NCBI RefSeq assembly: GCF_004210375.1
Contig: NC_134829.1
Coordinates: 52,878,107 to 52,942,106, forward strand
Direction: 5' to 3'
From: Tachypleus tridentatus
Taxonomy: Eukaryota > Arthropoda > Merostomata > Xiphosura > Limulidae
DNA length: 64,000 nucleotides
The notes under the pieces are model-generated. The model saw only the letters and a program-made list of their open reading frames with translations. It had not been told where the DNA came from and ran no database searches. Every line of letters begins with the position of its first letter. Within the stretch, counting starts at the first letter, position 1. Positions 5,887 through 56,497 of this stretch are shown piece by piece. A program made the translations under genes and the position numbers.

Positions 5887-5888
5887 TA

Positions 5889-11587: not shown

Positions 11588-11593
11588 AATAAA
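11588..11593 (+). promoter_or_regulatory. Poly(A) signal of gene 2
   Basis: AATAAA in exon 3, about 155 bases after the stop codon, at the same place as in gene 1. Confidence 0.6.
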
Positions 11594-12095: not shown

Positions 12096-12218
12096 CATAA
12101 GTGGTATCTGTACACAGGTAAGGATTAGTAAACTACGTATAGTGATAACTACAGCCGTACAGCAATACTTTAAGTAAAACACAATGTTCATTCAACACTC
12201 GGTTAAAACATCAAATAG

Positions 12219-12486: not shown

Positions 12487-12675
12487 AAATGACTCCTCAC
12501 GGTTTATATTTAAACATCCAATCCTGAGAAGTCGGTGAGTGTTTAAGATATTTGGATAGAACATTAAGCGAACTATAACTTAGGCCTCAAACATATGAAT
12601 ATTATTTGAGTCGCAAGACAAGGAATTACACTTCAAAGAACAAATTATTCTGTGGAACGTGTGTATGTGTGTGTC

Positions 12676-13150: not shown

Positions 13151-13635
13151 CACTGAATTTGTTCATTGAAGTTTAGGATATATTGTAGCATTCGTGAAGG
13201 AACAAACATGCGAAATGACAGGTAGTTTCGTTGCACCTAAGTGATAATTTCTATATTTATTTAATATAATGTCCTTTGAAATACGCGGTTAAAGTATTTT
13301 GGACGTTGGCTAATGAAATACAACAACGTGTTCCAAAACTGCTGCAGGATTTTATCTTGATGTCAAAATACTCGAATCCTGTACGTGTAGTTTATATATC
13401 AGATGGTAAAGTCGAACTCATTTTGCTATCTCTATCGAACATAGGAGTTTTCCAGAACACCATTAAAAACTGTGACATTATGTGAGTTTTCTAAACTTGC
13501 CAACAAATTCAATGTTTTAAAAGTTATTATCATTCAATGAAGATTTCGTGTGTTTGTTTGTTTCTTTGTGCTCTCGTTGGTTATCATGAAATGGAAGAAA
13601 ATTAAAACTAAACACTGATCATTAGATGTTAGTCG
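13151..13635. other. Non-coding spacer at the left edge of the satellite
   Basis: A 69-codon open frame (13,276-13,485) starts at TTG rather than ATG and shows no known domain. Nothing else is recognisable. Confidence 0.4.
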
Positions 13636-16600
13636 TGAAGTTTTGTTATGACACAACACTAACCTGCAAGTAAAGTTTGTTGATGACACTACATCAACCT
13701 GATAGTAAAGTTTGTTGATGACACTACATCAACCTGATAGTAAAGTTTGGTGATGACACAAAACCAACCTGCTAGTAAAGTTTGTTGATGACACTACATC
13801 AACCTGCTAGTAAAGTTTGGTGATGACACTACATCAACCTGCTAGAGAAGTTTGGTGATGACACTACATCAACCTGATAGTAAAGCTTGGTGATGACACT
13901 ATACCAACCTGCTAGTAAAGTTTGGTGATGACACTACATCAACCTGCTAGTAAAGTTTGGTGATGACACTACATCAACCTGCTAGTAAAGTTTGGTGATG
14001 ACACTACACTAACCTCCTAGTGAAGTTTGGTGATGACACTATACCAACCTGCTAATAAAGTTTGGTGATGACACTACATCAAACTGCTAGTAAAGTTTGG
14101 TGATGACACTACATCAACCTGCTAGTAAAGTTTGGTGATGACACTACACTAACCTCCTAGTGAAGTTTGGTGATGACACTACACCAACCTGCTAGTAAAG
14201 TTTGGTGATGACACTACACTAACCTGATAGTAAAGTTTGGTGATGACACTACACCAACCTACTAGTAAAGTTTGGTGATGACACTACACCAACCTGCTAG
14301 TAAGGTTTGGTGATGACACTACATCAACCTGCTAGTAAAGTTTGGTGATGACACTACACCAACCTGCTACTAAAGTTTGGTGATGACACAACACTAACCT
14401 GCAAGTAAAGTTTTGTTATGACACAACATTAACCTGCAAGTAAAGTTTGGTGATGACACAATACCAACCTGCTAGTAAAGTTTGTTGATGACACTACATC
14501 AACCTGATAGTAAAGTTTGTTGATGACACTACATCAACCTGCTAGTAAAGCTTGGTGATGACACAAAACCAACCTGCTAGTAAAGTTTGGTGATGACACT
14601 ACATCAACCTGCTAGTAAAGTTTGGTGATGACACTACACTAACCTGATAGTAAAGTTTGGTGATGACACTACACCAACCTGCTAGTAAGGTTTGGTGATG
14701 ACACTACATCAACCTGCTAGTAAAGTTTGGTGATGACACTACACCAACCTGCTAGTAAAGTTTGGTGATGACACTACATCAACCTGCTAGTAAAGTTTGG
14801 TGATGACACTACACTAACCTGCTAGTAAAGTTTGGTGATGACACTATACCAACCTGCTAGTAAAGTTTGGTGATGACACTACATCAACCTGCTAGTAAAG
14901 TTTGGTGATGACACTACATCAACCTGATAGTAAAGCTTGGTGATGACACTATACCAACCTGCTAGTAAAGTTTGGTGATGACACTACATCAACCTGCTAG
15001 TAAAGCTTGGTGATGACACTAAACCAACCTGCTAGTAAAGTTTGGTGATGACACTACATCAACCTGCTAGTAAAGTTTGGTGATGACACTACATAACCTG
15101 CTAGTAAAGTTTGTTGATGACACTACATCAACCTGCTAGTAAAGTTTGGTGATGACACTACATCAACCTGCTAGAGAAGTTTGGTGATGACACTACATCA
15201 ACCTGATAGTAAAGTTTGGTGATGACACTATACCAACCTGCTAGTAAAGTTTGGTGATGACACTACATCAACCTGCTAGTAAAGTTTGGTGATGACACTA
15301 CATCAACCTGCTAGTAAAGTTTGGTGATGACACTACATCAACCTACCTGTAAAGTTTGGTGATGAAGTTTGGTGATGACACTACATCAACCTGCTAGTAA
15401 AGTTTGGTGATGACACTACATCAACCTGCTAGTAAAGTTTGGTGATGACACTACATCAACCTGCTAGTAAAGTTTGGTGATGACACTACACTAACCTGCT
15501 AGTAAAGTTTGGTGATGACACTACACCAACCTGCTAGTAAAGTTTGGTGATGACACTACACCAACCTGCTAGTAAAGTTTGGTGATGACACTACACCAAC
15601 CTACTAGTAAAGTTTGGTGATGACACTACACCAACCTGCTAGTAAAGTTTGGTGATGACACTACATCAACCTGCTAGTAAAGTTTGGTGATGACACTACA
15701 CCAACCTGCTAGTAAAGTTTGGTGATGACACTACATCAACCTGCTAGTAAAGTTTGGTGATGACACTACACCAACCTGCTAGTAAAGTTTGGTGATGACA
15801 CTACATCAACCTGCTAGTAAAGTTTGGTGATGACACTACACCAACCTGCTAGTAAAGTTTGGTGATGACACTACACCAACCTGCCAGTAAAGTTTGGTGA
15901 TGACACTACACTAACCTGCCAGTAAAGTTTGGTGATGACACTACATCAACCTGCTAGTAAAGTTTGGTGATGACACTACATCAACCTACTAGTAAAGTTT
16001 AGTGATGACACTACATCAATCTGCTAGTAATGTTTGGTGATGAGGTTACACCAACCTGCCAGTAAACTTTGGTGATGACACTACACCAACCTGTTAGTAA
16101 AGTTTGGTGATGACACTACATCAACCTGCTAGTAAAGTTTGGTGATGACACTACATCAACCTGCCAGTAAAGTTTGGTGATGACACTACACCAACCTGCT
16201 AGTAAAGTTTGGTGATGACACTACATCAACCTGCTAGTAAAGTTTGGTGATGACACTACACCAACCTGCTAGGTGATCACACTACACCAACCTGATAGTA
16301 AAGTTTGGTGATGACACTACATCAACCTACTAGTAAAGTTTGGTGATTACACTACATCAACCTGCTAGTAAAGTTTGGTGATGACACTACATCAACCTAA
16401 AGTTTGTGAAAGTTTGGTGATGACACTACATCAACCTGCTAGTAAAGTTTGGTGATGACACTACATCAACCTGCCAGTAAAGTTTGGTGATGACACTACA
16501 CCAACCTGCTAGTAAAGTTTGGTGATGACACTACATCAACCTGCTAGTAAAGTTAGTAAAGTTTGGTGATGACACTACACCAACCTGCTAGTAAAGTTTG

Positions 16601-19600
16601 GTGATGACACTACATCAACCTGCTAGTAAAGTTTGGTGATGACACTACATCAACCTGCTAGTAAAGTTTGGTGATGACACTACATCAACCTGCTAGTAAA
16701 GTTTGGTGATGACACTACACCAACCTGCTAGTAAAGTTTGGTGATGACACTACACCAACCTGCTAGTAAAGTTTGGTGATGACACTACATCAACCTGCTA
16801 GTAAAGTTTGGTGATGACACTACATCAACCTGCTAGTAAAGTTTGGTGATGACACTACATCAACCTGCTAGTAAAGTTTGGTGATGACACTACACTAACC
16901 TGCTAGTAAAGTTTGGTGATGACACTACATCAACCTGCTAGTAAAGTTTGGTGATGACACTACATCAACCTGCTAGTAAAGTTTGGTGATGACACTACAC
17001 CAACCTGCCAGTAAAGTTTGGTGATGACACTACACCAACCTGCTAGTAAAGTTTGGTGATGACACTACACCAACCTGCTAGTAAAGTTTGGTGATGACAC
17101 TACACCAACCTCCTAGTCAACACTGCTAGTAAAGTTTGGTGATGACACTACATCAACCTGCTAGTAAAGTTTGGTGATGACACTACACCAACCTGCTAGT
17201 AAAGTTTGGTGATGACACTACACCAACCTACTAGTAAAGTTTGGTGATGACACTACACCAACCTGCTAGTAAAGTTTGGTGATGACACTACATCAACCTG
17301 CTAGTAAAGTTTGGTGATGACACTACATCAACCTGCTAGTAAAGTTTGGTGATGACACTACATCAACCTGCTAAAGTTTGGTGATGACACTACACCAACC
17401 TGTAAAGTTTGGTGATGACACTACATCAACCTGCTAGTAAAGTTTGGTGATGACACTACACTAACCTGCTAGTAAAGTTTGGTGATGACACTACATCAAC
17501 CTGCTAGTAAAGTTTGGTGATGACACTACATCAACCTGCTAGTAAAGTTTGGTGATGACACTACACCAACCTGCTAGTAAAGTTTGGTGATGACACTACA
17601 TCAACCTGCTAGTAAAGTTTGGTGATGACACTACACCAACCTGCCAGTAAAGTTTGGTGATGACACTACACCAACCTGCTAGTAAAGTTTGGTGATGACA
17701 CTACATCAACCTGCTAGTAAAGTTTGGTGATGACACTACACCAACCTGCTAGTAAAGTTTGGTGATGACACTACACCAACCTGCTAGTAAAGTTTGGTGA
17801 TGACACTACATCAACCTGCTAGTAAAGTTTGGTGATGACACTACACCAACCTACACCTAGTAAAGTTTGGTGATGACACTACACCAACCTGCCAGTAAAG
17901 TTTGGTGATGACACTACACCAACCTGCCAGTAAAGTTTGGTGATGACACTACACCAACCTGCTAGTAAAGTTTGGTGATGACACTACATCAACCTGCTAG
18001 TAAAGTTTGGTGATGACACTACATCAACCTGCTAGTAAAGTTTGGTGATGACACTACACCAACCTGCTAGTAAAGTTTGGTGATGACACTACATCAACCT
18101 GCTAGTAAAGTTTGGTGATGACACTACATCAACCTGCAGTAAAGTTTGGTGATGACACTACACCAACCTGCTAGTAAAGTTTGGTGATGACACTACATCA
18201 ACCTGCTAGTAAAGTTTGGTGATGACACTACATCAACCTGCTAGTAAAGTTTGGTGATGACACTACATCAACCTGCTAGTAAAGTTTGGTGATGACACTA
18301 CATCATCCTGTTAGTAAAGTTTAGTGATGACACTACATCAACCTGCTAGGTGATGACACTACACCAACCTGCTAGTAAAGTTTGGTGATGACACTACATC
18401 AACCTGCTAGTAAAGTTTGGTGATGACACTACATCAACCTGCTAGTAAAGTTTGGTGATGACACTACATCAACCTGCTAGTAAAGTTTGGTGATGACACT
18501 ACATCAACCTGCTAGTAAAGTTTGGTGATGACACTACACCAACCTGCCAGTAAAGTTTGGTGATGACACTACACCAACCTGCTAGTAAAGTTTGGTGATG
18601 ACACTACATCAACCTGCTAGTAAAGTTTGGTGATGACACTACATCAACCTGCTAGTAAAGTTTGGTGATGACACTACATCAACCTGCTAGTAAAGTTTGG
18701 TGATGACACTACATCAACCTGCTAGTAAAGTTTGGTGATGACACTACACCAACCTGCTAGTAAAGTTTGGTGATGACACTACATCAACCTGCTAGTAAAG
18801 TTTGGTGATGACACTACATCAACCTGCTAGTAAAGTTTGGTGATGACACTACATCAACCTGCTAGTAAAGTTTGGTGATGACACTACACCAACCTGCTAG
18901 TAAAGTTTGGTGATGACACTACACCAACCTGCTAGTAAAGTTTGGTGATGACACTACATTGCTAGTAAAGTTTGGTGATGACACTACATCAACCTGCTAG
19001 TAAAGTTTGGTGATGACACTACATCAACCTGCTAGTAAAGTTTGGTGATGACACTACATCAACCTGCTAGTAAAGTTTGGTGATGACACTACATCAACCT
19101 GCTAGTAAAGTTTGGTGATGACACTACACCAACCTGCTAGTAAAGTTTGGTGATGACACTACATCAACCTGCTAGTAAAGTTTGGTGATGACACTACATC
19201 AACCTGCTAGTAAAGTTTGGTGATGACACTACATCAACCTGCTAGTAAAGTTTGGTGATGACACTACACTCAACCTGCTAGTAAAGTTTGGTGATGAGTA
19301 AAGTTTGGTGATGACACTACACCAACCTGCTAGTAAAGTTTGGTGATGACACTACATCAACCTGCTAGTAAAGTTTGGTGATGACACTACATCAACCTGC
19401 TAGTAAAGTTTGGTGATGACACTACATCAACCTGCTAGTAAAGTTTAGTGATGACACTACATCAACCTGCTAGTAAAGTTTGGTGATGACACTACATCAA
19501 CCTGCTAGTAAAGTTTGGTGATGACACTACACCAACCTGCTAGTAAAGTTTGGATGACACTACACCAACCTGAGTAAAGTTTGGTGATGACACTACATCA

Positions 19601-22600
19601 ACCTGCTAGCTTTGGTGAAGTTTGGTGATGACAACACTGCTAGTAAAGTTTGGTGATGACACTACAACAACCTGATAGTAAAGTTTGGTGATGACACTAA
19701 ATCAACCTGCTAGTAAAGTTTGGTGATGACACTACATCAACCTGCTAGTAAAGTTTGGTGATGACACTACAACAACCTGCTAGTAAAGTTTGGTGATGAC
19801 ACTACATCAACCTGCTAGTAAAGTTTGGTGATGACACTACATCAACCTGCTAGTAAAGTTTGGTGATGACACTACACCAACCTGTAAAGTTTGGTGATGA
19901 CACTACATCAACCTGCTAGTAAAGTTTGGTGATGACACTACACCAACCTGCTAGTAAAGTTTGGTGATGACACTACACCAACCTGCTAGTAAAGTTTGGT
20001 GATGACACTACATCAACCTGCTAGTAAAGTTTGGTGATGACACTACATCAACCTGCTAGTAAAGTTTGGTGATGACACTACACTAACCTACTAGTAAAGT
20101 TTGGTGATGACACTACACTCAACCTGCTAGTAAAGTTTGGTGATGACACTACACAACCTGCTAGTAAAGTTTGGTGATGACACTACATCCTGCTAGTAAA
20201 CTACATCAACCTGCTAGTTTGGTGATGACACTACATCAACCTGCTAGTAAAGTTTGGTGATGACACTACATCAACCTGCTAGTAAAGTTTGGTGATGACA
20301 CTACACCAACCTGCTAGTAAAGTTTGGTGATGACACTACACCAACCTGCTAGTAAAGTTTGGTGATGACACTACATCAACCTGCTAGTAAAGTTTGGTGA
20401 TGACACTACATCAACCTGCTAGTAAAGTTTGGTGATGACACTACATCAACCTGCTAGTAAAGTTTGGTGATGACACTACACCAACCTGCTAGTAAAGTTT
20501 GGTGATGACACTACACCAACCTGCTAGTAAAGTTTGGTGATGACACTACATCAACCTGCTAGTAAAGTTTGGTGATGACACTACATGCTAGTAAAGTTTG
20601 GTGATGACACTACATCAACCTGCTAGTAAAGTTTGGTGATGACACTACATCAACCTGCTAGTAAAGTTTGGTGATGACACTACACCAACCTGCTAGTAAA
20701 GTTTGGTGATGACACTACACCAACCTGCTAGTAAAGTTTGGTGATGACACTACACCAACCTGCTAGTAAAGTTTGGTGATGACACTACACCAACCTGCTA
20801 GTAAAGTTTGGTGATGACACTACACCAACCTGCTAGTAAAGTTTGGTGATGACACTACACCAACCTGCTAGTAAAGTTTGGTGATGACACTACATCAACC
20901 TGCAAAAGTTTGGTGATGACACTACATAACCTGTAAAAGTTTGGTGATGACACTACATCAACCTGCTAGTAAAGTTTGGTGATGACACTACACCAACCTG
21001 CTAGTAAAGTTTGGTGATGACACTACATCAACCTGCTAGTAAAGTTTGGTGATGACACTACACCAACCTGCTAGTAAAGTTTGGTGATGACACTACACCA
21101 ACCTGCTAGTAAAGTTTGGTGATGACACTACACCAACCTGCTAGTAAAGTTTGGTGATGACACTACATCAACCTGCTAGTAAAGTTTGGTGATGACACTA
21201 CATCAACCTGCTAGTAAAGTTTGGTGATGACACTACATCAACCTGCTAGTAAAGTTTGGTGATGACACTACACCAACCTGCTAGTAAAGTTTGGTGATGA
21301 CACTACATCAACCTGCTAGTAAAGTTTGGTGATGACACTACATCAACCTGCTAGTAAAGTTTGGTGATGACACTACATCAACCTGCTAGTAAAGTTTGGT
21401 GATGACACTACATCAACCTGCTAGTAAAGTTTGGTGATGACACTACACCAACCTGCTAGTAAAGTTTGGTGATGACACTACAACCTGCTAACCTTTGCAC
21501 TACACCAACCTGCTAGTAAAGTTTGGTGATGACACTACATCAACCTGCTAGTAAAGTTTGGTGATGACACTACATCAACCTGCTAGTAAAGTTTGGTGAT
21601 GACACTACATCAACCTGCTAGTAAAGTTTGGTGATGACACTACATCAACCTGCTAGTAAAGTTTGGTGATGACACTACACCAACCTGCTAGTAAAGTTTG
21701 GTGATGACACTACATCAACCTGCTAGTAAAGTTTGGTGATGACACTACACTAACCTACTAGTAAAGTTTGGTGATGACACTACATCAACCTGCTAGTAAA
21801 GTTTGATGACACTACATCAACCTACTAGTAAAGTTTGGTGATGACACTACACCAACCTGCTAGTAAAGTTTGGTGATGACACTACATCAACCTGCTAGTA
21901 AAGTTTGGTGATGACACTACATCAACCTGCTAGTAAAGTTTGGTGATGACACTACATCAACCTGCTAGTAAAGTTTGGTGATGACACTACACCAACCTGC
22001 TAGTAAAGTTTGGTGATGACACTACATCAACCTGCTAGTAAAGTTTGGTGATGACACTACATCAACCTGCTAGTAAAGTTTGGTGATGACACTACACCAA
22101 CCTGCTAGTAAAGTTTGGTGATGACACTACACCAACCTGCTAGTAAAGTTTGGTGATGACACTACACCAACCTGCTAGTAAAGTTTGGTGATGACACTAC
22201 ATCAACCTGCTAGTAAAGTTTGGTGATGACACTACACCAACCTGCTAGTAAAGTTTGGTGATGACACTACACCAACCTGCTAGTAAAGTTTGGTGATGAC
22301 ACTACATCAACCTGCTAGTAAAGTTTGGTGATGACACTACACCAACCTGCTAGTAAAGTTTGGTGATGACACTACACCAACCTGCTAGTAAAGTTTGGTG
22401 ATGACACTACATCAACCTGCTAGTAAAGTTTGGTGATGACACTACACCAACCTGCTAGTAAAGTTTGGTGATGACACTACACCAACCTGCTAGTAAAGTT
22501 TGGTGATGACACTACATCAACCTGCTAGTAAAGTTTGGTGATGACACTACATCAACCTGCTAGTAAAGTTTGGTGATGACACTACACCAACCTGCTAGTA

Positions 22601-25600
22601 AAGTTTGGTGATGACACTACATCAACCTGCTAGTAAAGTTTGGTGATGACACTACACCAACCTGCTAGTAAAGTTTGGTGATGACACTACATCAACCTGC
22701 TAGTAAAGTTTGGTGATGACACTACATCAACCTGCTAGTAAAGTTTGGTGATGACACTACATCAACCTGCTAGTAAAGTTTGGTGATGACACTACACTAA
22801 CCTGCTAGTAAAGTTTGGTGATGACACTACACCAACCTGCTAGTAAAGTTTGGTGATGACACTACACTAACCTGCTAGTAAAGTTTGGTGATGACACTAC
22901 ACCAACCTGCTAGTAAAGTTTGGTGATGACACTACACCAACCTGCTAGTAAAGTTTGGTGATGACACTACACTAACCTGATAGTAAAGTTTGGTGATGAC
23001 ACTACACCAACCTGCACTAGTAAAGTTTGGTGATGACACTACACTAACCTGTAGTAAAGTTTGGTGATGACACTACACCAACCTGCTAGTAAAGTTTGGT
23101 GATGACACTACATCAACCTGCTAGTAAAGTTTGGTGATGACACTACACTAATCTGCTAGTAAAGTTTGGTGATGACACTACACCAACCTGCTAGTAAAGT
23201 TTGGTGATGACACTACACCAACCTGCTAGTAAAGTTTGGTGATGACACTACACTAACCTGCTAGTAAAGTTTGATGACACTACACCAACCTGATGTTTGG
23301 TGACACTACATCAACCTGCTAGTAAAGTTTGGTGATGACACTACATCAACCTGCTAGTAAAGTTTGGTGATGACACTACACCAACCTGCCAGTAAAGTTT
23401 GGTGATGACACTACACCAACCTGCTAGTAAAGTTTGGTGATGACACTACACCAACCTGCTAGTAAAGTTTGGTGATGACACTACATCAACCTGCTAGTAA
23501 AGTTTGGTGATGACACTACATCAACCTGCTAGTAAAGTTTGGTGATGACACTACATCAACCTGCTAGTAAAGTTTGGTGATGACACTACATCAACCTGCT
23601 AGTAAAGTTTGGTGATGACACTACATCAACCTGCTAGTAAAGTTTGGTGATGACACTACACCAACCTGTTTGGTGATGACACTACACCAAGTAAAGTTTG
23701 GTGATGACACTACACCAACCTGCTAGTAAAGTTTGGTGATGACACTACATCAACCTGCTAGTAAAGTTTGGTGATGACACTACATCAACCTGCTAGTAAA
23801 GTTTGGTGATGACACTACATCAACCTGCTAGTAAAGTTTGGTGATGACACTACATCAACCTGCTAGTAAAGTTTGGTGATGACACTACACCAACCTGCTA
23901 GTAAAGTTTGGTGATGACACTACACCAACCTGCTAGTAAAGTTTGGTGATGACACTACATCAACCTGCTAGTAAAGTTTGGTGATGACACTACATCAACC
24001 TGCTAGTAAAGTTTGGTGATGACACTACACCAACCTGCTAGTAAAGTTTGGTGATGACACTACATCAACCTGCTAGTAAAGTTTGGTGATGACACTACAC
24101 CAACCTGCTAGTAAAGTTTGGTGATGACACTACACCAACCTGCTAGTAAAGTTTGGTGATGACACTACATCAACCTGCTAGTAAAGTTTGGTGATGACAC
24201 TACATCAACCTGCTAGTAAAGTTTGGTGATGACACTACATCAACCTGCTAGTAAAGTTTGGTGATGACACTACACCAACCTGCTAGTAAAGTTTGGTGAT
24301 GACACTACACCAACCTGCTAGTAAAGTTTGGTGATGACACTACATCAACCTGCTAGTAAAGTTTGGTGATGACACTACACCAACCTGCTAGTAAAGTTTG
24401 GTGATGACACTACATCAACCTGCTAGTAAAGTTTGGTGATGACACTACACCAACCTGCTAGTAAAGTTTGGTGATGACACTACATCAACCTGCTAGTAAA
24501 GTTTGGTGATGACACTACATCAACCTGCTAGTAAAGTTTGGTGATGACACTACATCAACCTGCTAGTAAAGTTTGGTGATGACACTACACCAACCTGCTA
24601 GTAAAGTTTGGTGATGACACTACACCAACCTGCTAGTAAAGTTTGGTGATGACACTACATCAACCTGCTAGTAAAGTTTGGTGATGACACTACATCAACC
24701 TGCTAGTAAAGTTTGGTGATGACACTACACCAACCTGCTAGTAAAGTTTGGTGATGACACTACACCAACCTGCTAGTAAAGTTTGGTGATGACACTACAT
24801 CAACCTGCTAGTAAAGTTTGGTGATGACACTACATCAACCTGCTAGTAAAGTTTGGTGATGACACTACATCAACCTGCTAGTAAAGTTTGGTGATGACAC
24901 TACACCAACCTGCTAGTAAAGTTTGGTGATGACACTACATCAACCTGCTAGTAAAGTTTGGTGATGACACTACATCAACCTGCTAGTAAAGTTTGGTGAT
25001 GACACTACACCAACCTGCTAGTAAAGTTTGGTGATGACACTACATCAACCTGCTAGTAAAGTTTGGTGATGACACTACATCAACCTGCTAGTAAAGTTTG
25101 GTGATGACACTACATCCAACCTGCTAGTAAAGTTTGGTGATGACACTACACAACCTGCTAGTAAAGTTTGGTGATGACACTACATCAACCTGCTAGTAAA
25201 GTTTGGTGATGACACTACATCAACCTGCTAGTAAAGTTTGGTGATGACACTACACCAACCTGCCAGTAAAGTTTGGTGATGACACTACACCAACCTGCTA
25301 GTAAAGTTTGGTGATGACACTACATCAACCTGCTAGTAAAGTTTGGTGATGACACTACATCAACCTGCTAGTAAAGTTTGGTGATGACACTACATCAACC
25401 TGCTAGTAAAGTTTGGTGATGACACTACATCAACCTGCTAGTAAAGTTTGGTGATGACACTACACCAACCTGCTAGTAAAGTTTGGTGATGACACTACAT
25501 CAACCTGCTAGTAAAGTTTGGTGATGACACTACATCAACCTGCTAGTAAAGTTTGGTGATGACACTACATCAACCAACCTTGTGAACACTACACCAACCT

Positions 25601-28600: not shown

Positions 28601-31600
28601 GCTAGTAAAGTTTGGTGATGACACTACACCAACCTGCTAGTAAAGTTTGGTGATGACACTACATCAACCTGCTAGTAAAACCTTTAAAGTTTGTGATGAC
28701 ACTACATCAACCTGCTAGTAAAGTTTGGTGATGACACTACACCAACCTGCTAGTAAAGTTTGGTGATGACACTACACCAACCTGCTAGTAAAGTTTGGTG
28801 ATGACACTACATCAACCTGCTAGTAAAGTTTGGTGATGACACTACATCAACCTGCTAGTAAAGTTTGGTGATGACACTACACCAACCTGCTAGTAAAGTT
28901 TGGTGATGACACTACATCAACCTGCTAGTAAAGTTTGGTGATGACACTACATCAACCTGCTAGTAAAGTTTGGTGATGACACTACATCAACCTGCTAGTA
29001 AAGTTTGGTGATGACACTACACCAACCTGCTAGTAAAGTTTGGTGATGACACTACACCAACCTGCTAGTAAAGTTTGGTGATGACACTACACCAACCTGC
29101 TACATCAACCTGCTAAAGTTTGGTGATGACACTGGTGATGACACTACATCAACCTGCTAGTAAAGTTTGGTGATGACACTACATCAACCTGCTAGTAAAG
29201 TTTGGTGATGACACTACATCAACCTGCTAGTAAAGTTTGGTGATGACACTACACCAACCTGCTAGTAAAGTTTGGTGATGACACTACATCAACCTGCTAG
29301 TAAAGTTTGGTGATGACACTACATCAACCTGCTAGTAAAGTTTGGTGATGACACTACACCAACCTGCTAGTAAAGTTTGGTGATGACACTACACCAACCT
29401 GCTAGTAAAGTTTGGTGATGACACTACATCAACCTGCTAGTAAAGTTTGGTGATGACACTACACCAACCTGCTAGTAAAGTTTGGTGATGACACTACATC
29501 AACCTGCTAGTAAAGTTTGGTGATGACACTACATCAACCTGCTAGTAAAGTTTGGTGATGACACTACATCAACCTGCTAGTAAAGTTTGGTGATGACACT
29601 ACACCAACCTGCTAGTAAAGTTTGGTGATGACACTACACCAACCTGCTAGTAAAGTTTGGTGATGACACTACATCAACCTGCTAGTAAAGTTTGGTGATG
29701 ACACTACATCAACCTGCTAGTAAAGTTTGGTGATGACACTACACCAACCTGCTAGTAAAGTTTGGTGATGACACTACATCAACCTGCTAGTAAAGTTTGG
29801 TGATGACACTACATCAACCTGCTAGTAAAGTTTGGTGATGACACTACATCAACCTGCTAGTAAAGTTTGGTGATGACACTACATCAACCTGCTAGTAAAG
29901 TTTGGTGATGACACTACATCAACCTGCTAGTAAAGTTTGGTGATGACACTACATCAACCTGCTAGTAAAGTTTGGTGATGACACTACATCAACCTGCTAG
30001 TAAAGTTTGGTGACACTACACCAACCTGCTAGTAAAGTTTGGTGATGACACTACATCAACAACCTGCTAGTAAAGTTTGGTGATGACACTACATCAACCT
30101 GCTAGTAAAGTTTGGTGATGACACTACATCAACCTGCTAGTAAAGTTTGGTGATGACACTACACCAACCTGCTAGTAAAGTTTGGTGATGACACTACACC
30201 AACCTGCTAGTAAAGTTTGGTGATGACACTACATCAACCTGCTAGTAAAGTTTGGTGATGACACTACATCAACCTGCTAGTAAAGTTTGGTGATGACACT
30301 ACACCAACCTGCTAGTAAAGTTTGGTGATGACACTACACCAACCTGCTAGTAAAGTTTGGTGATGACACTACACCAACCTGCTAGTAAAGTTTGGTGATG
30401 ACACTACACCAACCTGCTAGTAAAGTTTGGTGATGACACTACATCAACCTGCTAGTAAAGTTTGGTGATGACACTACATCAACCTGCTAGTAAAGTTTGG
30501 TGATGACACTACACCAACCTGCTAGTAAAGTTTGGTGATGACACTACACCAACCTGCTAGTAAAGTTTGGTGATGACACTACACCAACCTGCTAGTAAAG
30601 TTTGGTGATGACACTACACCAACCTGCTAGTGAAAGTTTGGTGAAAGTTTGGTGATGACACTACATCAACCTGTTTGGTGATGACACTACATCAACCTGC
30701 TAAAGTTTGGTGATGACACTACACCAACCTGCTAGTAAAGTTTGGTGATGACACTACACCAACCTGCTAGTAAAGTTTGGTGATGACACTACATCAACCT
30801 GCTAGTAAAGTTTGGTGATGACACTACACCAACCTGCTAGTAAAGTTTGGTGATGACACTACACCAACCTGCTAGTAAAGTTTGGTGATGACACTACACC
30901 AACCTGCTAGTAAAGTTTGGTGATGACACTACACAACCTGCTAGTAAAGTTTGGTGATGACACTACATCAACCTGCTAGTAAAGTTTGGTGATGACACTA
31001 CATCAACCTGCTAGTAAAGTTTGGTGATGACACTACACCAACCTGCTAGTAAAGTTTGGTGATGACACTACACAACCTGCTAGTAAAGTTTGGTGATGAC
31101 ACTACACCAACCTGCTAGTAAAGTTTGGTGATGACACTACACCAACCTGCTAGTAAAGTTTGGTGATGACACTACACCAACCTGCTAGTAAAGTTTGGTG
31201 ATGACACTACACCAACCTGCTAGTAAAGTTTGGTGATGACACTACACCAACCTGCTAGTAAAGTTTGGTGATGACACTACATCAACCTGCTAGTAAAGTT
31301 TGGTGATGACACTACACCAACCTGCTAGTAAAGTTTGGTGATGACACTACATCAACCTGCTAGTAAAGTTTGGTGATGACACTACATCAACCTGCTAGTA
31401 AAGTTTGGTGATGACACTACACCAACCTGCTAGTAAAGTTTGGTGATGACACTACACCAACCTGCTAGTAAAGTTTGGTGATGACACTACATCAACCTGC
31501 TAGTAAAGTTTGGTGATGACACTACACCAACCTGCTAGTAAAGTTTGGTGATGACACTACACCAACCTGCTAGTAAAGTTTGGTGATGACACTACACCAA

Positions 31601-34600
31601 CCTGCTAGTAAAGTTTGGTGATGACACTACACCAACCTGCTAGTAAAGTTTGGTGATGACACTACACCAACCTGCTAGTAAAGTTTGGTGATGACACTAC
31701 ACCAACCTGCTAGTAAAGTTTGGTGATGACACTACACCAACCTGCTAGTAAAGTTTGGTGATGACACTACACTAACCTGCTAGTAAAGTTTGGTGATGAC
31801 ACTACACCAACCTGCTAGTAAAGTTTGGTGATGACACTACACCAACCTGCTAGTAAAGTTTGGTGATGACACTACACCAACCTGCTAGTAAAGTTTGGTG
31901 ATGACACTACACCAACCTGCTAGTAAAGTTTGGTGATGACACTACACCAACCTGCTAGTAAAGTTTGGTGATGACACTACACCAACCTGCTAGTAAAGTT
32001 TGGTGATGACACTACACCAACCTGCTAGTAAAGTTTGGTGATGACACTACACCAACCTGCTAGTAAAGTTTGGTGATGACACTACATCAACCTGCTAGTA
32101 AAGTTTGGTGATGACACTACATCAACCTGCTAGTAAAGTTTGGTGATGACACTACACCAACCTGCTAGTAAAGTTTGGTGATGACACTACACCAACCTGC
32201 TAGTAAAGTTTGGTGATGACACTACATCAACCTGCTAGTAAAGTTTGGTGATGACACTACATCAACCTGCTAGTAAAGTTTGGTGATGACACTACACCAA
32301 CCTGCTAGTAAAGTTTGGTGATGACACTACATCAACCTGCTAGTAAAGTTTGGTGATGACACTACATCAACCTGCTAGTAAAGTTTGGTGATGACACTAC
32401 ATCAACCTGCTAGTAAAGTTTGGTGATGACACTACACCAACCTGCTAGTAAAGTTTGGTGATGACACTACAACCTGCAACCTGCTAGTAAAGTTTGGTGA
32501 TGACACTACATCAACCTGCTAGTAAAGTTTGGTGATGACACTACATCAACCTGCTAGTAAAGTTTGGTGATGACACTACATCAACCTGCAAAAGTTTGGT
32601 GATGACACTACATCAACCTGCTAGTAAAGTTTGGTGATGACACTACACCAACCTGCTAGTAAAGTTTGGTGATGACACTACACCAACCTGCTAGTAAAGT
32701 TTGGTGATGACACTACATCAACCTGCTAGTAAAGTTTGGTGATGACACTACATCAACCTGCTAGTAAAGTTTGGTGATGACACTACATCAACCTGCTAGT
32801 AAAGTTTGGTGATGACACTACACCAACCTGCTAGTAAAGTTTGGTGATGACACTACACAACCTGCTAGTAAAGTTTGGTGATGACACTACATCAACCTGC
32901 TAGTAAAGTTTGGTGATGACACTACACCAACCTGCTAGTAAAGTTTGGTGATGACACTACATCAACCTGCTAGTAAAGTTTGGTGATGACACTACATCAA
33001 CCTGCTAGTAAAGTTTGGTGATGACACTACATCAACCTGCTAGTAAAGTTTGGTGATGACACTACATCAACCTGCTAGTAAAGTTTGGTGATGACACTAC
33101 ATCAACCTGCTAGTAAAGTTTGGTGATGACACTACACCAACCTGCTAGTAAAGTTTGGTGATGACACTACATCAACCTGCTAGTAAAGTTTGGTGATGAC
33201 ACTACACAACCTGCTAGTAAAGTTTGGTGATGACACTACATCAACCTGCTAGTAAAGTTTGGTGATGACACTACACCAACCTGCTAGTAAAGTTTGGTGA
33301 TGACACTACATCAACCTGCTAGTAAAGTTTGGTGATGACACTACATCAACCTGCTAGTAAAGTTTGGTGATGACACTACATCAACCTGCTAGTAAAGTTT
33401 GGTGATGACACTACACCAACCTGCTAGTAAAGTTTGGTGATGACACTACATCAACCTGCTAGTAAAGTTTGGTGATGACACTACATCAACCTGCTAGTAA
33501 AGTTTGGTGATGACACTACACCAACCTGCTAGTAAAGTTTGGTGATGACACTACATCAACCTGCTAGTAAAGTTTGGTGATGACACTACATCAACCTGCT
33601 AGTAAAGTTTGGTGATGACACTACATCAACCTGCTAGTAAAGTTTGGTGATGACACTACATCAACCTGCTAGTAAAGTTTGGTGATGACACTACATCAAC
33701 CTGCTAGTAAAGTTTGGTGATGACACTACACCAACCTGCTAGTAAAGTTTGGTGATGACACTACACCAACCTGCTAGTAAAGTTTGGTGATGACACTACA
33801 TCAACCTGCTAGTAAAGTTTGGTGATGACACTACATCAACCTGCTAGTAAAGTTTGGTGATGACACTACACCAACCTGCTAGTAAAGTTTGGTGATGACA
33901 CTACATCAACCTGCTAGTAAAGTTTGGTGATGACACTACACCAACCTGCTAGTAAAGTTTGGTGATGACACTACACCAACCTGCTAGTAAAGTTTGGTGA
34001 TGACACTACACCAACCTGCTAGTAAAGTTTGGTGATGACACTACATCAACCTGCTAGTAAAGTTTGGTGATGACACTACATCAACCTGCTAGTAAAGTTT
34101 GGTGATGACACTACATCAACCTGCTAGTAAAGTTTGGTGATGACACTACATCAACCTGCTAGTAAAGTTTGGTGATGACACTACACCAACCTGCTAGTAA
34201 AGTTTGGTGATGACACTACATCAACCTGCTAGTAAAGTTTGGTGATGACACTACATCAACCTGCTAGTAAAAGTTTGGTGATGACACTAGTAAAGTTTGG
34301 TGATGACAACCTAGTAAAGTTTGGTGATGACACTACATCAACCTGCTAGTAAAGTTTGGTGATGACACTACATCAACCTGCTAGTAAAGTTTGGTGATGA
34401 CACTACATCCAACCTGCTAGTAAAGTTTGGTGATGACACTACACCAACCTGCTAGTAAAGTTTGGTGATGACACTACACTACAACCTGCTAGTAAAGTTT
34501 GGTGATGACACTACACCAACCTGCTAGTAAAGTTTGGTGATGACACTACATCAACCTGCTAGTAAAGTTTGGTGATGACACTACATCAACCTGCTAGTAA

Positions 34601-37600
34601 AGTTTGGTGATGACACTACACCAACCTGCTAGTAAAGTTTGGTGATGACACTACACCAACCTGCTAGTAAAGTTTGGTGATGACACTACACCAACCTGCT
34701 AGTAAAGTTTGGTGATGACACTACACCAACCTGCTAGTAAAGTTTGGTGATGACACTACACCAACCTGCCTAGCTAGTAAAGTTTGGTGATGACACTACA
34801 TCAACCTGCTAGTAAAGTTTGGTGATGACACTACACCAACCTGCTAGTAAAGTTTGGTGATGACACTACATCAACCTGCTAGTAAAGTTTGGTGATGACA
34901 CTACACCAACCTGCTAGTAAAGTTTGGTGATGACACTACACCAACCTGCTAGTAAAGTTTGGTGATGACACTACACCAACCTGCTAGTAAAGTTTGGTGA
35001 TGACACTACACCAACCTGCTAGTAAAGTTTGGTGATGACACTACACCAACCTGCTAGTAAAGTTTGGTGATGACACTACATCAACCTGCTAGTAAAGTTT
35101 GGTGATGACACTACACCAACCTGCTAGTAAAGTTTGGTGATGACACTACACCAACCTGCTAGTAAAGTTTGGTGATGACACTACATCAACCTGCTAGTAA
35201 AGTTTGGTGATGACACTACACCAACCTGCTAGTAAAGTTTGGTGATGACACTACACCAACCTGCTAGTAAAGTTTGGTGATGACACTACATCAACCTGCT
35301 AGTAAAGTTTGGTGATGACACTACATCAACCTGCTAGTAAAGTTTGGTGATGACACTACACACTAACCTGCTAGTAAAGTTTGGTGATGACACTACACCA
35401 ACCTGCTAGTAAAGTTTGGTGATGACACTACATCAACCTGCTAGTAAAGTTTGGTGATGACACTACACCAACCTGCTAGTAAAGTTTGGTGATGACACTA
35501 CACCAACCTGCTAGTAAAGTTTGGTGATGACACTACACCAACCTGCTAGTAAAGTTTGGTGATGACACTACACCAACCTGCTAGTAAAGTTTGGTGATGA
35601 CACTACACCAACCTGCTAGTAAAGTTTGGTGATGACACTACACCAACCTGCTAGTAAAGTTTGGTGATGACACTACATCAACCTGCTAGTAAAGTTTGGT
35701 GATGACACTACATCATCCTGTTAGTAAAGTTTAGTGATGACACTACATCAACCTGCTAGGTGATGACACTACACCAACCTGATAGTAAAGTTTGGTGATG
35801 ACACTACACCAACCTGCTAGTAAAGTTTGGTGATGACACTACATCAACCTGCTGTAAAGTTTGGTGATAGTAAAGTTTGGTGATGACACTACACCAACCT
35901 GATAGTAAAGTTTGGTGATGACACTACACCAACCTGCTAGTAAGGTTTGGTGATGACACTACATCAACCTGCTAGTAAAGTTTGGTGATGACACTACACC
36001 AACCTGCTAGTAAAGTTTGGTGATGACACTACACCAACCTGCTAGTAAAGTTTGGTGATGACACTACACCAACCTGCTAGTAAAGTTTGGTGATGACACT
36101 ACATCAACCTGCTAGTAAAGTTTGGTGATGACACTACATCAACCTGCTAGTAAAGTTTGGTGATGACACTACATCAACCTGCTAGTAAAGTTTGGTGATG
36201 ACACTACACCAACCTGCTAGTAAAGTTTGGTGATGACACTACATCAACCTGCTAGTAAAGTTTGGTGATGACACTACATCAACCTGCTAGTAAAGTTTGG
36301 TGATGACACTACATCAACCTGCTAGTAAGGTTTGGTGATGACACTACATCAACCTGCTAGTAAAGTTTGGTGATGACACTACACCAACCTGCTACTAAAG
36401 TTTGGTGATGACACTACACTAACCTGCTAGTAAAGTTTGGTGATGACACTACATCAACCTGCTAGTAAAGTTTGGTGATGACACTACATCAACCTGCTAG
36501 TAAAGTTTGGTGATGACACTACATCAACCTGCTAGTAAAGTTTGGTGATGACACTACATCAACCTGCTAGTAAAGTTTGGTGATGACACTACACCAACCT
36601 GCTAGTAAAGTTTGGTGATGACACTACACTGCAATCTGCTAGTAAAGTTTGGTGATGACACTACACCAACCTGCTAGTAAAGTTTGGTGATGACACTACA
36701 CCAACCTGCTAGTAAAGTTTAGTGATGACACTACATCAACCTGCTAGGTGATGACACTACACCAACCTGCTAGTAAAGTTTGGTGATGACACTACACCAA
36801 CCTGCTAGTAAAGTTTGGTGATGACACTACATCAACCTGCTAGTAAAGTTTGGTGATGACACTACATCAACCTGCTAGTAAAGTTTGGTGATGACACTAC
36901 ACCAACCTGCTAGTAAAGTTTGGTGATGACACTACATCAACCTGCTAGTAAAGTTTGGTGATGACACTACATCAACCTGCTAGTAAAGTTTGGTGATGAC
37001 ACTACATCAACCTGCTAGTAAAGTTTGGTGATGACACTACACCAACCTGCTAGTAAAGTTTGGTGATGACACTACATCAACCTGCTAGTAAAGTTTGGTG
37101 ATGACACTACATCAACCTGCTAGTAAAGTTTGGTGATGACACTACACTAACCTGCTAGTAAAGTTTGGTGATGACACTACATCAACCTGCTAGTAAAGTT
37201 TGGTGATGACACTACATCAACCTGCTAGTAAAGTTTGGTGATGACACTACATCAACCTGCTAGTAAAGTTTGGTGATGACACTACACCAACCTGCTAGTA
37301 AAGTTTGGTGATGACACTACATCAACCTGCTAGTAAAGTTTGGTGATGACACTACACTAACCTGCTAGTAAAGTTTGGTGATGACACTACACCAACCTAC
37401 TAGTAAAGTTTGGTGATGACACTACACCAACCTGATAGGTGATCACACTACACCAACCTGATAGTAAAGTTTGGTGATGACACTACATCAACCTGCTAGT
37501 AAAGTTTGGTGATGACACTACACCAACCTGCTAGTAAAGTTTGGTGATGACACTACACTCAACCTGCTAGTAAAGTTTGGTGATGACACTACATCAACCT

Positions 37601-40600
37601 GCTAGTAAAGTTTGGTGATGACACTACATCAACCTGCTAGTAAAGTTTGGTGATGACACTACACCAACCTGCTAGTAAAGTTTGGTGATGACACTACATC
37701 AACCTGCTAGTAAAGTTTGGTGATGACACTACACCAACCTGCCAGTAAAGTTTGGTGATGACACTACATCAACCTACTAGTAAAGTTTGGTGATGACACT
37801 ACACCAACCTACTAGTAAAGTTTGGTGATGACACTACATCAACCTGCTAGTAAAGTTTGGTGATGACACTACACTAACCTCCTAGTAAAGTTTGGTGATG
37901 ACACTACATCAACCTGCTAGTAAAGTTTGGTGATGACACTACATCAACCTGCTAGTAAAGTTTGGTGATGACACTACATCAACCTGCTAGTAAAGTTTGG
38001 TGATGACACTACATCAACCTGCCAGTAAACTTTGGTGATGACACTACACTAACCTGCTAGTAAAGTTTGGTGATGACACTACACCAACCTGCTACACTAC
38101 ATCAACCTGCTAGTAAAGTTTAGTGATGACACTACATCAACCTGCTAGTAAAGTTTGGTGATGACACTACACCAACCTGCTAGTAAAGTTTGGTGATGAC
38201 ACTACACCAACCTGCTAGTAAAGTTTGGTGATGACACTACACCAACCTGCTAGTAAAGTTTGGTGATGACACTACACCAACCTGCTAGTAAAGTTTGGTG
38301 ATGACACTACATCAACCTGCTAGTAAAGTTTGGTGATGACACTACATCAACCTGCTAGTAAAGTTTGGTGATGACACTACATCAACCTGCTAGTAAAGTT
38401 TGGTGATGACACTACATCAATCTGCTAGTAAAGTTTGGTGATGACACTACACTAACCTGCTAGTAAAGTTTGGTGATGACACTACACCAACCTGCTAGTA
38501 AAGTTTGGTGATGACACTACACCAACCTGCTAGTAAAGTTTGGTGATGACACTACACTAACCTCCTAGTGAAGTTTGGTGATGACACTACACCAACCTGC
38601 TAGTAAAGTTTGGTGATGACACTACACTAACCTGCTAGTAAAGTTTGGTGATGACACTACACCAACCTGCTAGTAAAGTTTGGTGATGACACTACACCAA
38701 CCTGCTAGTAAAGTTTGGTGATGACACTACATCAACCTGCTAGTAAAGTTTGGTGATGACACTACACCAACCTGCTAGTAAAGTTTGGTGATGACACTAC
38801 ACTAACCTGCTAGTAAAGTTTGGTGATGACACTACATCAACCTGCTAGTAAAGTTTGGTGATGACACTACACCAACCTGCTAGTAAAGTTTGGTGATGAC
38901 ACTACACCAACCTGCTAGTAAAGTTTGGTGATGACACTACATCAACCTGCTAGTAAAGTTTGGTGATGACACTACACCAACCTGCTAGTAAAGTTTGGTG
39001 ATGACACTACACTAACCTCCTAGTAAAGTTTGGTGATGACACTATATCAACCTGCTAGTAAAGTTTGGTGATGACACTACATCAATCGGCTAGTAAAGTT
39101 TGGTGATGACACTACACTAATCTCCTAGTGAAGTTTGGTGATGACACTAAACCAACCTACTTTTAAAGTTTGGTGATGACACTACATCAACCTGCTAGTA
39201 AAGTTTGGTGATGACACTACACTAACCTCCTAGTGAAGTTTGGTGATGACACTATACCAACCTGCTAGTAAAGTTTGATGATGACACTACATCAATCGGC
39301 TAGTAAAGTTTGGTGATGACACTACTCTAATCTCCTAGTGAAGTTTGGTGATGACACTACACCAACCTGCTAGTAAAGTTTGGTGATGACACTACACTAA
39401 CCTGCTGGTAAAGTTTGGTGATGACACTACACCAACCTGCTAGTAAAGTTTGGTGATGACACTACACTAACCTCCTAGTGAAGTTTGGTGATGACACTAT
39501 ACCAACCTGCTAGTAAAGTTTGGTGATGACACTACATCAATCGGCTAGTAAAGTTTGGTGATGACACTACATCAACCTACTAGTAAAGTTTGGTGATGAC
39601 ACTACACTAATCTCTAGTGAAGTTTGGTGATGACACTACACCAACCTGCTAGTAAAGTTTGGTGATGACACTACATCAATCTGCTAGTAAAGTTTGGTGA
39701 TGACACTACACTAATCTCCTAGTAAAGTTTGGTGATGACACTACACCAACCTGCTAGTAAAGTTTGGTGATGACACTACACTAATCCTGATAGTAAAGTT
39801 TGGTGATGACACTACACCAACCTACTAGTAAAGTTTGGTGATGACACTACACCAACCTGCTAGTAAGGTTTGGTGATGACACTACATCAACCTGCTAGTA
39901 AAGTTTGGTGATGACACTACACCAACCTGCTACTAAAGTTTGGTGATGACACTACACTAACCTGCTAGTAAAGTTTGGTGATGACACTACATCAATCTGA
40001 TAGTAAGTTTGGTGATGACACTACATCAACCTGACAGTGAAATTTAGTGATGACACTACACCAACCTGCTAGTAAATTTTGGTGATGACAGTACATCAAC
40101 CTGCCAGTAAAGTTTGGGGATGACACTACACCAACCTTCCAGTAAAGTTTGGTGATGACACTACATCAACCTGCCAGTAAAGTTTGGTGATGACACTACA
40201 CTAACCTACTAGTAAAGTTTGGTGATGACACTTCATCAACCTGCTAGTAAAGTTTGGTGATGACACTACACTAACCTCCTAGTGAAGTTTGGTGATGACA
40301 CTACACTAACTTCCTAGTGAAGTTTGGTGATGACATTAAATCAATCGGCTAGTAAAGTTTGGTGATGACACTACTTCAACCTACGAGTAATGTTTGGTGA
40401 TGACACTACATCAACCTACCAGTAAAGTTTGGTGATGACACTACACTAACCTCCTAGTGAAGTTTGGTGATGACACTATACCAACCTGCTAGTAAAGTTT
40501 GGTGATGACACTACATCAATCGGCTAGTAAAGTTTGGTGATGACACTACACTAATCTCCTAGTGAAGTTTGGTGATGACACTACACCAACCTGCTAGTAA

Positions 40601-42830
40601 AGTTTGGTGATGACACTACACCAACCTGCTACTAAAGTTTGATGATGACACTACACTAACCTGCTAGTAAAGTTTGGTGCTGACACTACATCAATCTGAT
40701 AGTAAGTTTGGTGATGACACTACATCAACCTGCTAGTAAAGTTTGGTGATGACACTACATCAACCTGCTAGTAAAGTTTGGTGATGACACTACACTAACC
40801 TCCTAGTGAAGTTTGGTGATGACACTATACCAACCTGCTAGTAAAGTTTGGTGATGACACTACACTAACCTCCTAGTGAAGTTTGGTGATGACATTAAAT
40901 CAATCGGCTAGTAAAGTTTGGTGATGACACTACTTCAACCTACGAGTAATGTTTGGTGATGACACTACATCAACCTACGAGTAAAGTTTGGTGATGACAC
41001 TACACCATCCTGCTAATAAAGTTTGGTGATGACACTACACTAATCTGATAGTAAAGTTTGGTGATGACACTACACTAATCTGATAGTAAAGTTTGGTGAT
41101 GACACTACACCAACCTACTAGTAAAGTTTGGTGATGACACTACACCAACCTGCTAGTAAAGTTTGGTGATGACACTACATCAACCTGCTAGTAAAGTTTG
41201 GTGATGACACTACACCAACCTGCTAGTAAAGTTTGGTGATGACACTACACTAACCTGCTAGTAAAGTTTGGTGATGACACTACATCAATCTGATAGTAAG
41301 TTTGGTGATGACACTACACCAACCTGCCAGTAAAGTTTGGTGATGACACTTCACCAATCTGCTAGTAAAGATAGTGATGACACTACATGAACCTGCTAGT
41401 AAAGTTTGGTGATGAGATTACACCAACCTGCCAGTAAAGTTTGGTGATGACACTACACTAACCTCCTATTGAAGTTTGGTGATGACACTATATCAACCTG
41501 CTAGTAAAGTTTGGTGATGACACTACATCAATCGGCTAGTAAAGTTTGGTGATGACACTACACTAATCTCGTAGTGAAGTTTGATGATGACACTAAACCA
41601 ACTTACTTTTAAAGTTTGGTGATGACACTACACCAACCTGCTAGTAAAGTTTGGTGATGACACTACACCAACCTGCTAGTAAAGTTTGGTGATGACACTA
41701 CATCAATCTGCTAGTAAAGTTTGGTGATGACACTACACTAATCTCCTAGTGAAGTTTGGTGATGACACTACACCAACCTGCTAGTAAAGTTTGGTGATGA
41801 CACTACACTAACCTACTGGTAACGTTTGGTGATGACACTACACCAACCTGCTAGTAAAGTTTGGTGATGACACTACACTAACCTCCTAGTGAAGTTTGGT
41901 GATGACACTATACCAACCTGCTAGTAAAGTTTGGTGATGACACTACATCAATCGGCTAGTAAAGTTTGGTGATGACACTACATCAACCTACGAGTAAAGT
42001 TTGGTGATGACACTACACTAATCTCCTAGTGAAGTTTGGTGATGACACTATACCAACCTGCTAGTAAAGTTTGGTGATGACACTACATCAATCGGCTAGT
42101 AAAGTTTGGTGATGACACTACACTAATCTCCTAGTGAAGTTTGGTGATGACACTACACCAACCTGCTAGTAAAGTTTGGTGATGACACTACACTAATCTG
42201 ATAGTAAAGTTTGGTGATGACACTACACCAACCTACTAGTAAAGTTTGGTGATGACACTACACCAACCTGCTAGTAAGGTTTGGTGATGACACTACACCA
42301 ACCTGCTACTAAAGTTTGGTGATGACACTACACTAACCTCCTAGTGAAGTTTGGTGATGACACTACACTAACCTCCTAGTGAAGTTTGGTGATGACATTA
42401 AATCAATCGGCTAGTAAAGTTTGGTGATGACACTACTTCAACCTACGAGTAATGTTTGGTGATGACACTACACCAACCTGCTAGTAAAGTTTGGTGATGA
42501 CACTACATCAACCTGGCAGTAAAGTTTGGTGATGACACTACACCAACCTGCTAGTAAAGTTTGGTGATGACACTACACCAACCTGCTAGTAAAGTTTGGT
42601 GATGACACTAGACCAATCTGCTAGTAAAGTTTGGTGATGACACTACATCAACCTACTAGTAAAGTTTGGTGATGACACTACAACAACCTGATAGTAAAGT
42701 TTGGTGATGACACTACACTAACCTCCTATTGAAGTTTGGTGATGACACTATATCAACTTGCTAGTAAAGTTTGGTGATGACACTACAACAATCGGCTAGT
42801 AAAGTTTGGTGATGACACTACACTAATCTC
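13636..42830. repeat. Giant 35-bp satellite array (about 830 monomers, 29.2 kb)
   Basis: A 35-base monomer is repeated head to tail with one orientation throughout; a clean example is 22,519-22,553. It begins AACCTGCTAGTAAAG, continues TTTGGTGATGAC and ends ACTACATC. The main variable site is the end of the monomer, read as CATC, CACC or CACT. The central 25 kb is nearly uniform. The first about 1 kb and the last about 3.8 kb carry many private variants. There are scattered partial monomers, where a unit is cut and rejoined out of register. 35 is not a multiple of three and the unit holds TAG, TAA and TGA, so all frames are closed. No gene, transposon or other insertion interrupts it. Monomer GC is 40 percent, a little above the flanks. 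It is a satellite or very large minisatellite; a centromeric or heterochromatic role cannot be judged from sequence. Confidence 0.99.
39000..42830. repeat. Divergent right edge of the satellite with higher-order blocks
   Basis: Monomer subtypes recur in fixed order: a CCTCCTAGTGAAG unit, a TATACCAACCTG unit, an AATCGGCTAG unit and an AATCTCCTAGTGAAG unit. AATCGGCTAG occurs at about 39,087, 39,297, 39,542, 40,346, 40,521, 40,905, 41,533, 41,953, 42,093, 42,408 and 42,793. Most spacings are exact multiples of 35 (140, 175, 210, 245, 315, 385, 420). I saw this subtype nowhere else in the array. Confidence 0.85.
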
Positions 42831-44238: not shown

Positions 44239-44240
44239 TA

Positions 44241-55704: not shown

Positions 55705-56497
55705 ATGAAGGTGAGTAGTGTACACTTCCATTGTTACCATAGAAACAAGATAAACTCGTCAGATCGAGGGAATCTGAACGGATCTTTTATCTAATGTATT
55801 TCGTGTTCAGTTCTTCATAAGTAATGAGTTTTCATTGTGTAATGAAACGTATATTCGTTGATACAATAAATACGGTAACCATAACAAGATTTGTTTACAT
55901 CGATTTATATTATGATGACAGTAAAGTAATTGTTTATTCAGTTAAAACATTCATTTATAAAGCTTTGTAAAACAATCTATTTTTATATCTATCAATAAAA
56001 GTATGACATAACCTTATAAGAATTATAAATATGTTGGTTTTGAATCTCGCTAGGTCTACACCGTTTTCTCCCTCGGTCTTCTACTTCTAGCAGCTTGTGC
56101 TGAGGAACAACCACGAGCTAGCAAAGCTGACGATTTAAGAGCTGATGCTACAGGTTATGGTGGTGGTGGATATGGTGGAGGAGGATACGGTGGTGGTGGA
56201 TACGGCTTAGGCGGATTTGGCGGTGGTGGATATGGTGGTGGTGTTGCAGGTTTGGCTCTACTAGCTGTTCCAATTCGTCTAGGAGCTGGTGGTGGCTATG
56301 GTGGAGGCATCGGTGGCTTTAGGGGTGGAATTGGAGGATATAGGAGGTGGTATTGGAGGATATGGAGGTGGAATTGGAGGATATGGAGGTGGAATTGGAG
56401 GATATGGAGGTGGCATCGGCGGTTTTGGAGGCAAATATGGTGGTGGAGGCTATGGCCATCATTAGCAGGTGCTATTTTAATTTCCCTTTTGGAATAG
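55705..56497 (+). CDS. Secreted glycine-rich protein 3, frameshifted into a Trp/Arg-rich tail
   Basis: Exon 1 is 55,705-55,710 (M-K), the intron 55,711-56,053 (GTGAGT...GCTAG), and exon 2 starts at 56,054. Residues 1-18 are a signal peptide (MKVYTVFSLGLLLLAACA). A linker follows with DDLRADATGYGG, then GGY repeats and the hydrophobic island LALLAVPIRL (69-78). Compared with gene 4, one extra A at 56,342 shifts the frame. From residue 99 the GGA/GGT/TAT repeat is read as AGG/TGG/ATA, giving a tail with 15 Trp and 12 Arg in 38 residues (RRWYWRIWRWNW...), then 13 ordinary residues and a stop at 56,495-56,497. Total 149 residues. Without the extra base the frame would end at TAG 56,463-56,465. 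This is either a decaying copy, a novel tail, or an assembly error. Confidence 0.75.

Follow-up and report, generated by a model that had tools for sequence, protein, structure and literature searches.

A 29-kb tandem array in the horseshoe crab Tachypleus tridentatus is very probably a giant single-locus minisatellite in a minisatellite-rich chromosomal stretch

MS32/D1S8 is the type of the human hypervariable minisatellites with interspersed variant repeats. The available part of PMC2363947 describes certain alleles in which two repeat types are randomly interspersed, and that of PMC2599865 describes interallelic, conversion-like change in minisatellites, with synthesis-dependent strand annealing proposed for MS32, MS205, and CEB1. 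According to the portion of PMC3356730 at hand, minisatellite arrays measure 0.5-30 kb, and their subtelomeric and centromeric clustering has been reported, with dissent. The array considered here, from the horseshoe crab Tachypleus tridentatus, resembles the hypervariable minisatellites with variant-repeat codes, as known from one assembly: like the human loci, it combines a unit in the 6-100 bp range, a single locus, and two interspersed variant types. In contrast, the classical human loci are GC-rich (PMC2599865, same part), whereas the array, 29.2 kb long as assembled, is about 41% GC. An AT-rich exception to the GC-rich unit of MVR-type loci does exist in MSY1 of the human Y chromosome, which is further comparable in its 25-bp unit, its base-substitution variants, and the gene conversion proposed for it; however, its variants lie in blocks, whereas those of the horseshoe-crab core are interspersed (for MSY1, the accessible text of PMC2599865). 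With satellite DNA that forms higher-order repeats the array shares its length, its homogeneity, and its more diverged edges, but it occupies one locus of the assembly and its core lacks a strong higher-order period.

The window, by which we mean the whole stretch of 64,000 nucleotides that was analyzed, corresponds to C5:52,878,107-52,942,106 of the assembly; unless a scaffold is named, positions are those of the window. Coagulogen marks the genome as that of a horseshoe crab: it has at least 19 matches to this family, which is without a match in 14 control genomes, and the product of one exon agrees with the coagulogen chain 1aoc_A (PDB), from Tachypleus tridentatus, at 46 residues in a row within a match of 51. 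Tandem Repeats Finder gave a single array of period 35 with 833.6 copies at 13638-42823, and also listed a period of 105 with a score above that of period 35. Wrap-around alignment resolved 838 monomers, all on the plus strand and with a mean identity to the consensus of 96%, of which 750 are exactly 35 bp and 88 differ in length. Both analyses bear out an earlier note, made from the sequence alone, that had described a 29-kb run of a 35-bp monomer in one orientation. The array holds no open reading frame of at least 80 aa from stop to stop, which rules out a coding repeat. A structured RNA or hairpin was also considered, as TTGGTG can pair with CACCAA in the monomer, and was rejected: folding (z -0.59 to -2.07, with at best 8 of 200 shuffles folding equally well) is weak evidence, and the window has neither a tRNA nor an Rfam match at gathering thresholds.

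Table 1. Positions in the window of the array, its parts, and the flanking open frames
Feature	Position	Strand	Basis or remarks
35-bp minisatellite array	13638..42823	+	Tandem Repeats Finder and wrap-around alignment; about 834-838 monomers
Consensus monomer AAGTTTGGTGATGACACTACA(C/T)CAACCTGCTAGTA	array 13638..42823	+	
Left edge, more diverged	13638..16445	+	1.43 then 0.72 substitutions/monomer outside position 22; two 40-monomer bins
Homogeneous core	16445..38711	+	0 to 0.47 substitutions/monomer outside position 22; 16 bins of 40
Right edge, more diverged	38711..42823	+	1.45 to 2.08 substitutions/monomer; three bins
Glycine-rich secreted-like protein, open frame	2319..3074	+	251 aa stop to stop
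Tandem paralogue of the 2319 frame	10370..11104	+	9988-12097 vs 1954-4074, 93%
Glycine-rich secreted-like protein, second subfamily	56054..56497	+	Open frame, protein search
Tandem paralogue of the 56054 frame	62359..62748	+	55953-57525 vs 62258-63809, 96%

The status of the array turns on its copy number in the assembly, which comprises 2.17 Gb in 205 contigs. The exact consensus 35-mer occurs 254 times, on one strand only, and all 254 occurrences fall within the window; a 19-mer core, with at most one mismatch allowed, has 802 matches, 800 of them in the window, and a rough estimate gives about 1 match expected outside it by chance. One of the two outside matches is an isolated site on C4. 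On this evidence, the array occupies a single locus in the assembled sequence and is not a satellite family; since its monomer is confined to that locus, it belongs, as a very large example, with minisatellites and not with genome-wide satellites, and the word 'satellite' in the earlier note has to be given up. The unit of 35 bp lies within the 6-100 bp of minisatellites, the 29.2 kb as assembled reach the top of their 0.5-30 kb range (PMC3356730, in the part available), and the many genome-wide copies that characterize a satellite are not seen in the assembled sequence. We regard it as very probable that we are dealing with a giant minisatellite, present at a single locus on a horseshoe-crab chromosome, in a region rich in minisatellites. 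Literature searches on horseshoe-crab satellites, tandem repeats, and minisatellites, and with 21 bases of the monomer, pointed to no earlier description of it. The word 'satellite' has 0 occurrences in the main text of the horseshoe-crab genome papers PMC7815833 and PMC7210998, and in passages of the latter 'tandem' refers to genes. Our verdict is that the array is a new, very large locus of an already known minisatellite type.

Its flanks are rich in SINEs, as had been claimed: one local SINE has 89 loci in 234.8 kb of flank. At even density 11.1 would be expected in the array, where blastn found none (Poisson 1.6e-5). As the longest monomer is 48 bp, there is no long insert either, and these results, with the lack of open frames, uphold the claim that no transposon or gene lies inside. 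The SINE touches other tandem arrays at 0 of its 89 loci, an absence that is to some extent built into the count, since an array that takes an insertion is split. The reference copy of this SINE-like family is at 45081-45356, and the median best identity of the 89 loci to it is 86%. Two mariner-like copies, 94% identical, lie one on each side of the array at 4978-5888 and 43330-44240, and a frame at the former has a Mos1-type HTH match. An origin of the array inside a mobile element was considered and is disfavored by the left flank, where 12490-13637 has no other match among those listed in 264 kb.

The four flanking frames (Table 1) predict glycine-rich proteins with a hydrophobic start, none of which matches a Pfam family at E 0.001. 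On both sides of the array, this start is followed by a D-D-L-x-A-x-A-x-G-Y-G-G-like stretch. A search of the genome with the 56054 protein listed 41 matches, of which 20 lie at C5:52.88-53.71 Mb; the left-hand gene at 2340 matches it weakly (52% identity, E 3.6e-4, values that glycine runs can inflate), and the 10370 gene is absent among the matches listed. Judging by these sequence comparisons, the flanking genes are likely two subfamilies of one glycine-rich cluster, and they would fit cuticle proteins. The array had been placed between two gene clusters: genes on both sides there are, but their division into separate clusters is doubtful, as they probably form one family, linked by the weak match. 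Further matches of the glycine-rich genes are grouped at C13:149.88-149.94 Mb. The tandem duplication units of these genes in the window carry small minisatellites of their own, and a tandem array at 56324 falls within a glycine-rich frame.

The surroundings are dense in other tandem arrays. The 264 kb around the array hold 53 merged arrays of at least 5 copies, the 35-bp array included (52 others), and arrays of at least 3 copies make up 22% of the DNA outside the big array; under a slightly different filter, 53 local units have a median length of 43 bp and a GC content from 0.16 to 0.50. Locus privacy was assessed for two neighbors. The downstream 54-bp array is private, with all 86 matches (at most 2 mismatches) at C5:52,949,615-52,954,258, where all 86 units are in register; 53 match exactly, and 26 more share one second variant, which is interspersed along the array. 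The upstream 53-bp array, with 91 matches, occurs at three places on C5, and therefore not every neighboring array is single-copy. It is seen with a near-identical variant order at C5:52,615,870-52,618,315 and 52,787,562-52,789,996, 171.7 kb apart, a pair that represents either a segmental duplication or a second haplotype retained in the assembly. A core motif common to the 53 local units was sought and rejected, as the top k-mers (k 6-10) stay within the maxima of 200 Markov controls; k-mers in at least two arrays do exceed the control mean (145 vs 95.6 at k 9; 100 vs 29.7 at k 10), probably because some arrays are related copies. A relationship of the 35-mer to a neighboring unit was likewise rejected (best score 19 vs a Markov best-score mean of 21.3).

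Within the array, position 22 of the monomer is C in 421, T in 397, and A in 4 of the 838 monomers, and is a gap in 16. Elsewhere in the monomer most columns hardly vary, and minor second variants appear in columns such as 23, 26, 29-31, and 35. All results on this C/T code describe a single assembly. The C and T types are interspersed along the core, and tests for their order were made on core monomers 100-690 (282 C and 291 T of 573 scored). Over lags of up to 125 monomers, identity peaks at 0.41, vs 0.33 expected from composition, and the core thus has no strong higher-order repeat at these lags, although Tandem Repeats Finder does list period 105. The variant repeats are interspersed as in MVR-type loci, in an order that is close to, yet not fully, random, with the caveat on assembly given below: there are 257 runs vs 287 expected (z -2.55), k-mer entropy is lower than in shuffles (z to -6.3), and 18 tracts of at least 9 monomers are repeated, where 60 shuffles average 5.5 and never exceed 12. 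The longest repeated tract, of 12 monomers, is inside the shuffle range. The deficit of runs, the low entropy, and the excess of tracts together argue for some block copying in the core; block sharing is seen in the edges. Sharing was measured on equal rare monomers (types with 2 to 6 copies; types with at least 7 copies excluded), whose shared neighbors exceed those of random pairs in the left edge (0.88 vs 0.20; 17 pairs) and in the right edge (0.93 vs 0.14; 70 pairs), in contrast to the core (0.89 vs 1.08; 18 pairs). The right edge has short blocks in common at lags such as 28, 45, and 70 monomers. One run of rare variants is common to 18240 and 35650, 17.4 kb apart; it extends over more than 100 bp and then stops.

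A possible history is that the edges are remnants of an older array, whose middle expanded from monomers with C or T at position 22, and that conversion-like copying of short tracts, of about one to a few monomers, then spread and mixed the variants. The route might be synthesis-dependent strand annealing following a break, which has been put forward for hypervariable minisatellites in humans. The shared-neighbor measure can be set beside a toy simulation with arbitrary rates, a random starting array, and 8 runs per setting, in which it is best matched by conversion tracts of about one monomer: the value was 0.98 vs 1.00 when single monomers were converted, rose to 2.1 with a mean tract of 2, and reached 4.6 or more with means of at least 5. 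With tandem duplication of single monomers it was 0.52, and the lag-1 correlation was 0.38 vs the 0.08 observed over the whole array; in the conversion models, this correlation is near 0, slightly under the observed value. Whether short-tract conversion is the main process in the core we hold to be evenly balanced. The array itself is most likely neutral, with predicted differences in length between individuals.

The chief competing account of this turnover is that larger blocks exchanged by unequal crossing-over, the mode of classical satellites, did most to homogenize the array. Such exchange predicts a homogeneous core with diverged edges, which is what is found; the higher score of period 105, the short blocks shared at fixed lags in the edges, and the excess of long repeated tracts in the core point the same way. 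Against this, no strong higher-order period emerges in the core up to 125 monomers, rare variants of the core bring no extra shared neighbors with them, and simulated blocks of mean at least 5 predict long shared neighborhoods. We thus consider block exchange an unlikely, though not negligible, explanation, and the turnover by unequal exchange suggested in the earlier note can be followed in part: the homogeneous core and diverged edges are signs of turnover, but unequal exchange as the main process of the core is doubtful. An account of another kind is that the length of the array or its C/T order is materially wrong in the assembly. Half of the 26 single-base indels in the array (13) are at the C/T site: column 22 accounts for 8 of the 16 deletions, and columns 21 and 22 for 5 of the 10 insertions, all five being a T beside C, as if both variants or neither had been called. 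The assembled order is therefore not fully trustworthy; consensus building from reads or haplotypes with different bases at the site is the likely source of these indels, while a mutation hot spot at the site may be an alternative one. Some recurrent rare core types may likewise be consensus errors, and mixed haplotypes or misplaced reads may account for some of the apparent shuffling. That 88 of 838 monomers depart from 35 bp, vs 86 of 86 units in register in the neighboring 54-bp array, adds to the suspicion. However, 750 monomers do have exactly 35 bp, both sides have diverged edges with variants of their own, and several rare variants are found again as a run 17.4 kb away, such that a material artefact appears improbable.

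The two remaining alternatives concern what the array is, rather than how it changes, and we give both little weight. Its size and homogeneity, taken alone, would suit membership in a true satellite family of centromeres or heterochromatin, of which it would be one block; nevertheless, a location among genes and the lack of the monomer in bulk elsewhere in the assembled 2.17 Gb make this the least credible of the readings. Hardly more credible is a putative function, for instance as a boundary or spacer in the glycine-rich gene cluster: the array does sit among these genes, but the same region has many other arrays of different units, and no k-mer is common to more arrays than the maximum of the Markov controls. 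The best explanation as a whole, in which a neutral minisatellite at one locus turns over mainly through conversion-like copying of short tracts, has in our estimate a probability of about three in four.

The window is 6.46 Mb from the end of C5, and the density of arrays around it raises the matter of chromosome position. Among the first ten 4-kb samples, one site, 2 Mb from the start of C1, was array-rich, and 0 arrays were counted at the 9 interior sites. In fresh samples of 500-bp sites, 20 distal and 20 interior, arrays of at least 150 bp occurred at 8 of the 20 distal sites, which lie 1-4 Mb from a scaffold end, vs 1 of 20 interior sites (Fisher p 0.020). Shorter partial arrays were left uncounted: one distal (104 bp) and one interior (128 bp) in these samples, and one interior (91 bp) among the 4-kb samples. 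Adding the 4-kb samples gives 9 of 21 distal vs 1 of 29 interior (p 0.0009), a figure that includes the 4-kb site that suggested distal enrichment in the first place. At none of the sampled scaffolds does an end show the exact telomere repeat, and hence we do not equate 'distal' with subtelomeric. Runs of what we take to be the arthropod telomere repeat were seen at C3:99.44 Mb, C6:77.57 Mb, C12:62.88 Mb, C13:274.44 Mb, and C19:2.63-3.27 and 33.83 Mb; the internal ones on C3, C6, and C12 are either interstitial telomere repeats or misjoins.

Taken alone, the array is a large but ordinary minisatellite that could serve as a variant-repeat marker. Its surroundings suggest more. We tentatively propose, as an idea somewhat short of an even chance, that the distal domains of horseshoe-crab chromosomes hold thousands of mostly locus-private, AT-rich minisatellites with two-variant codes written by conversion, the 35-bp array being among the largest; the literature searched yielded no description of such loci in the horseshoe-crab lineage. 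Minisatellite-dense distal domains of this kind could test, outside mammals, whether arrays follow recombination. If the proposal is true, they would mark the recombination-active chromosome arms and record exchange events.
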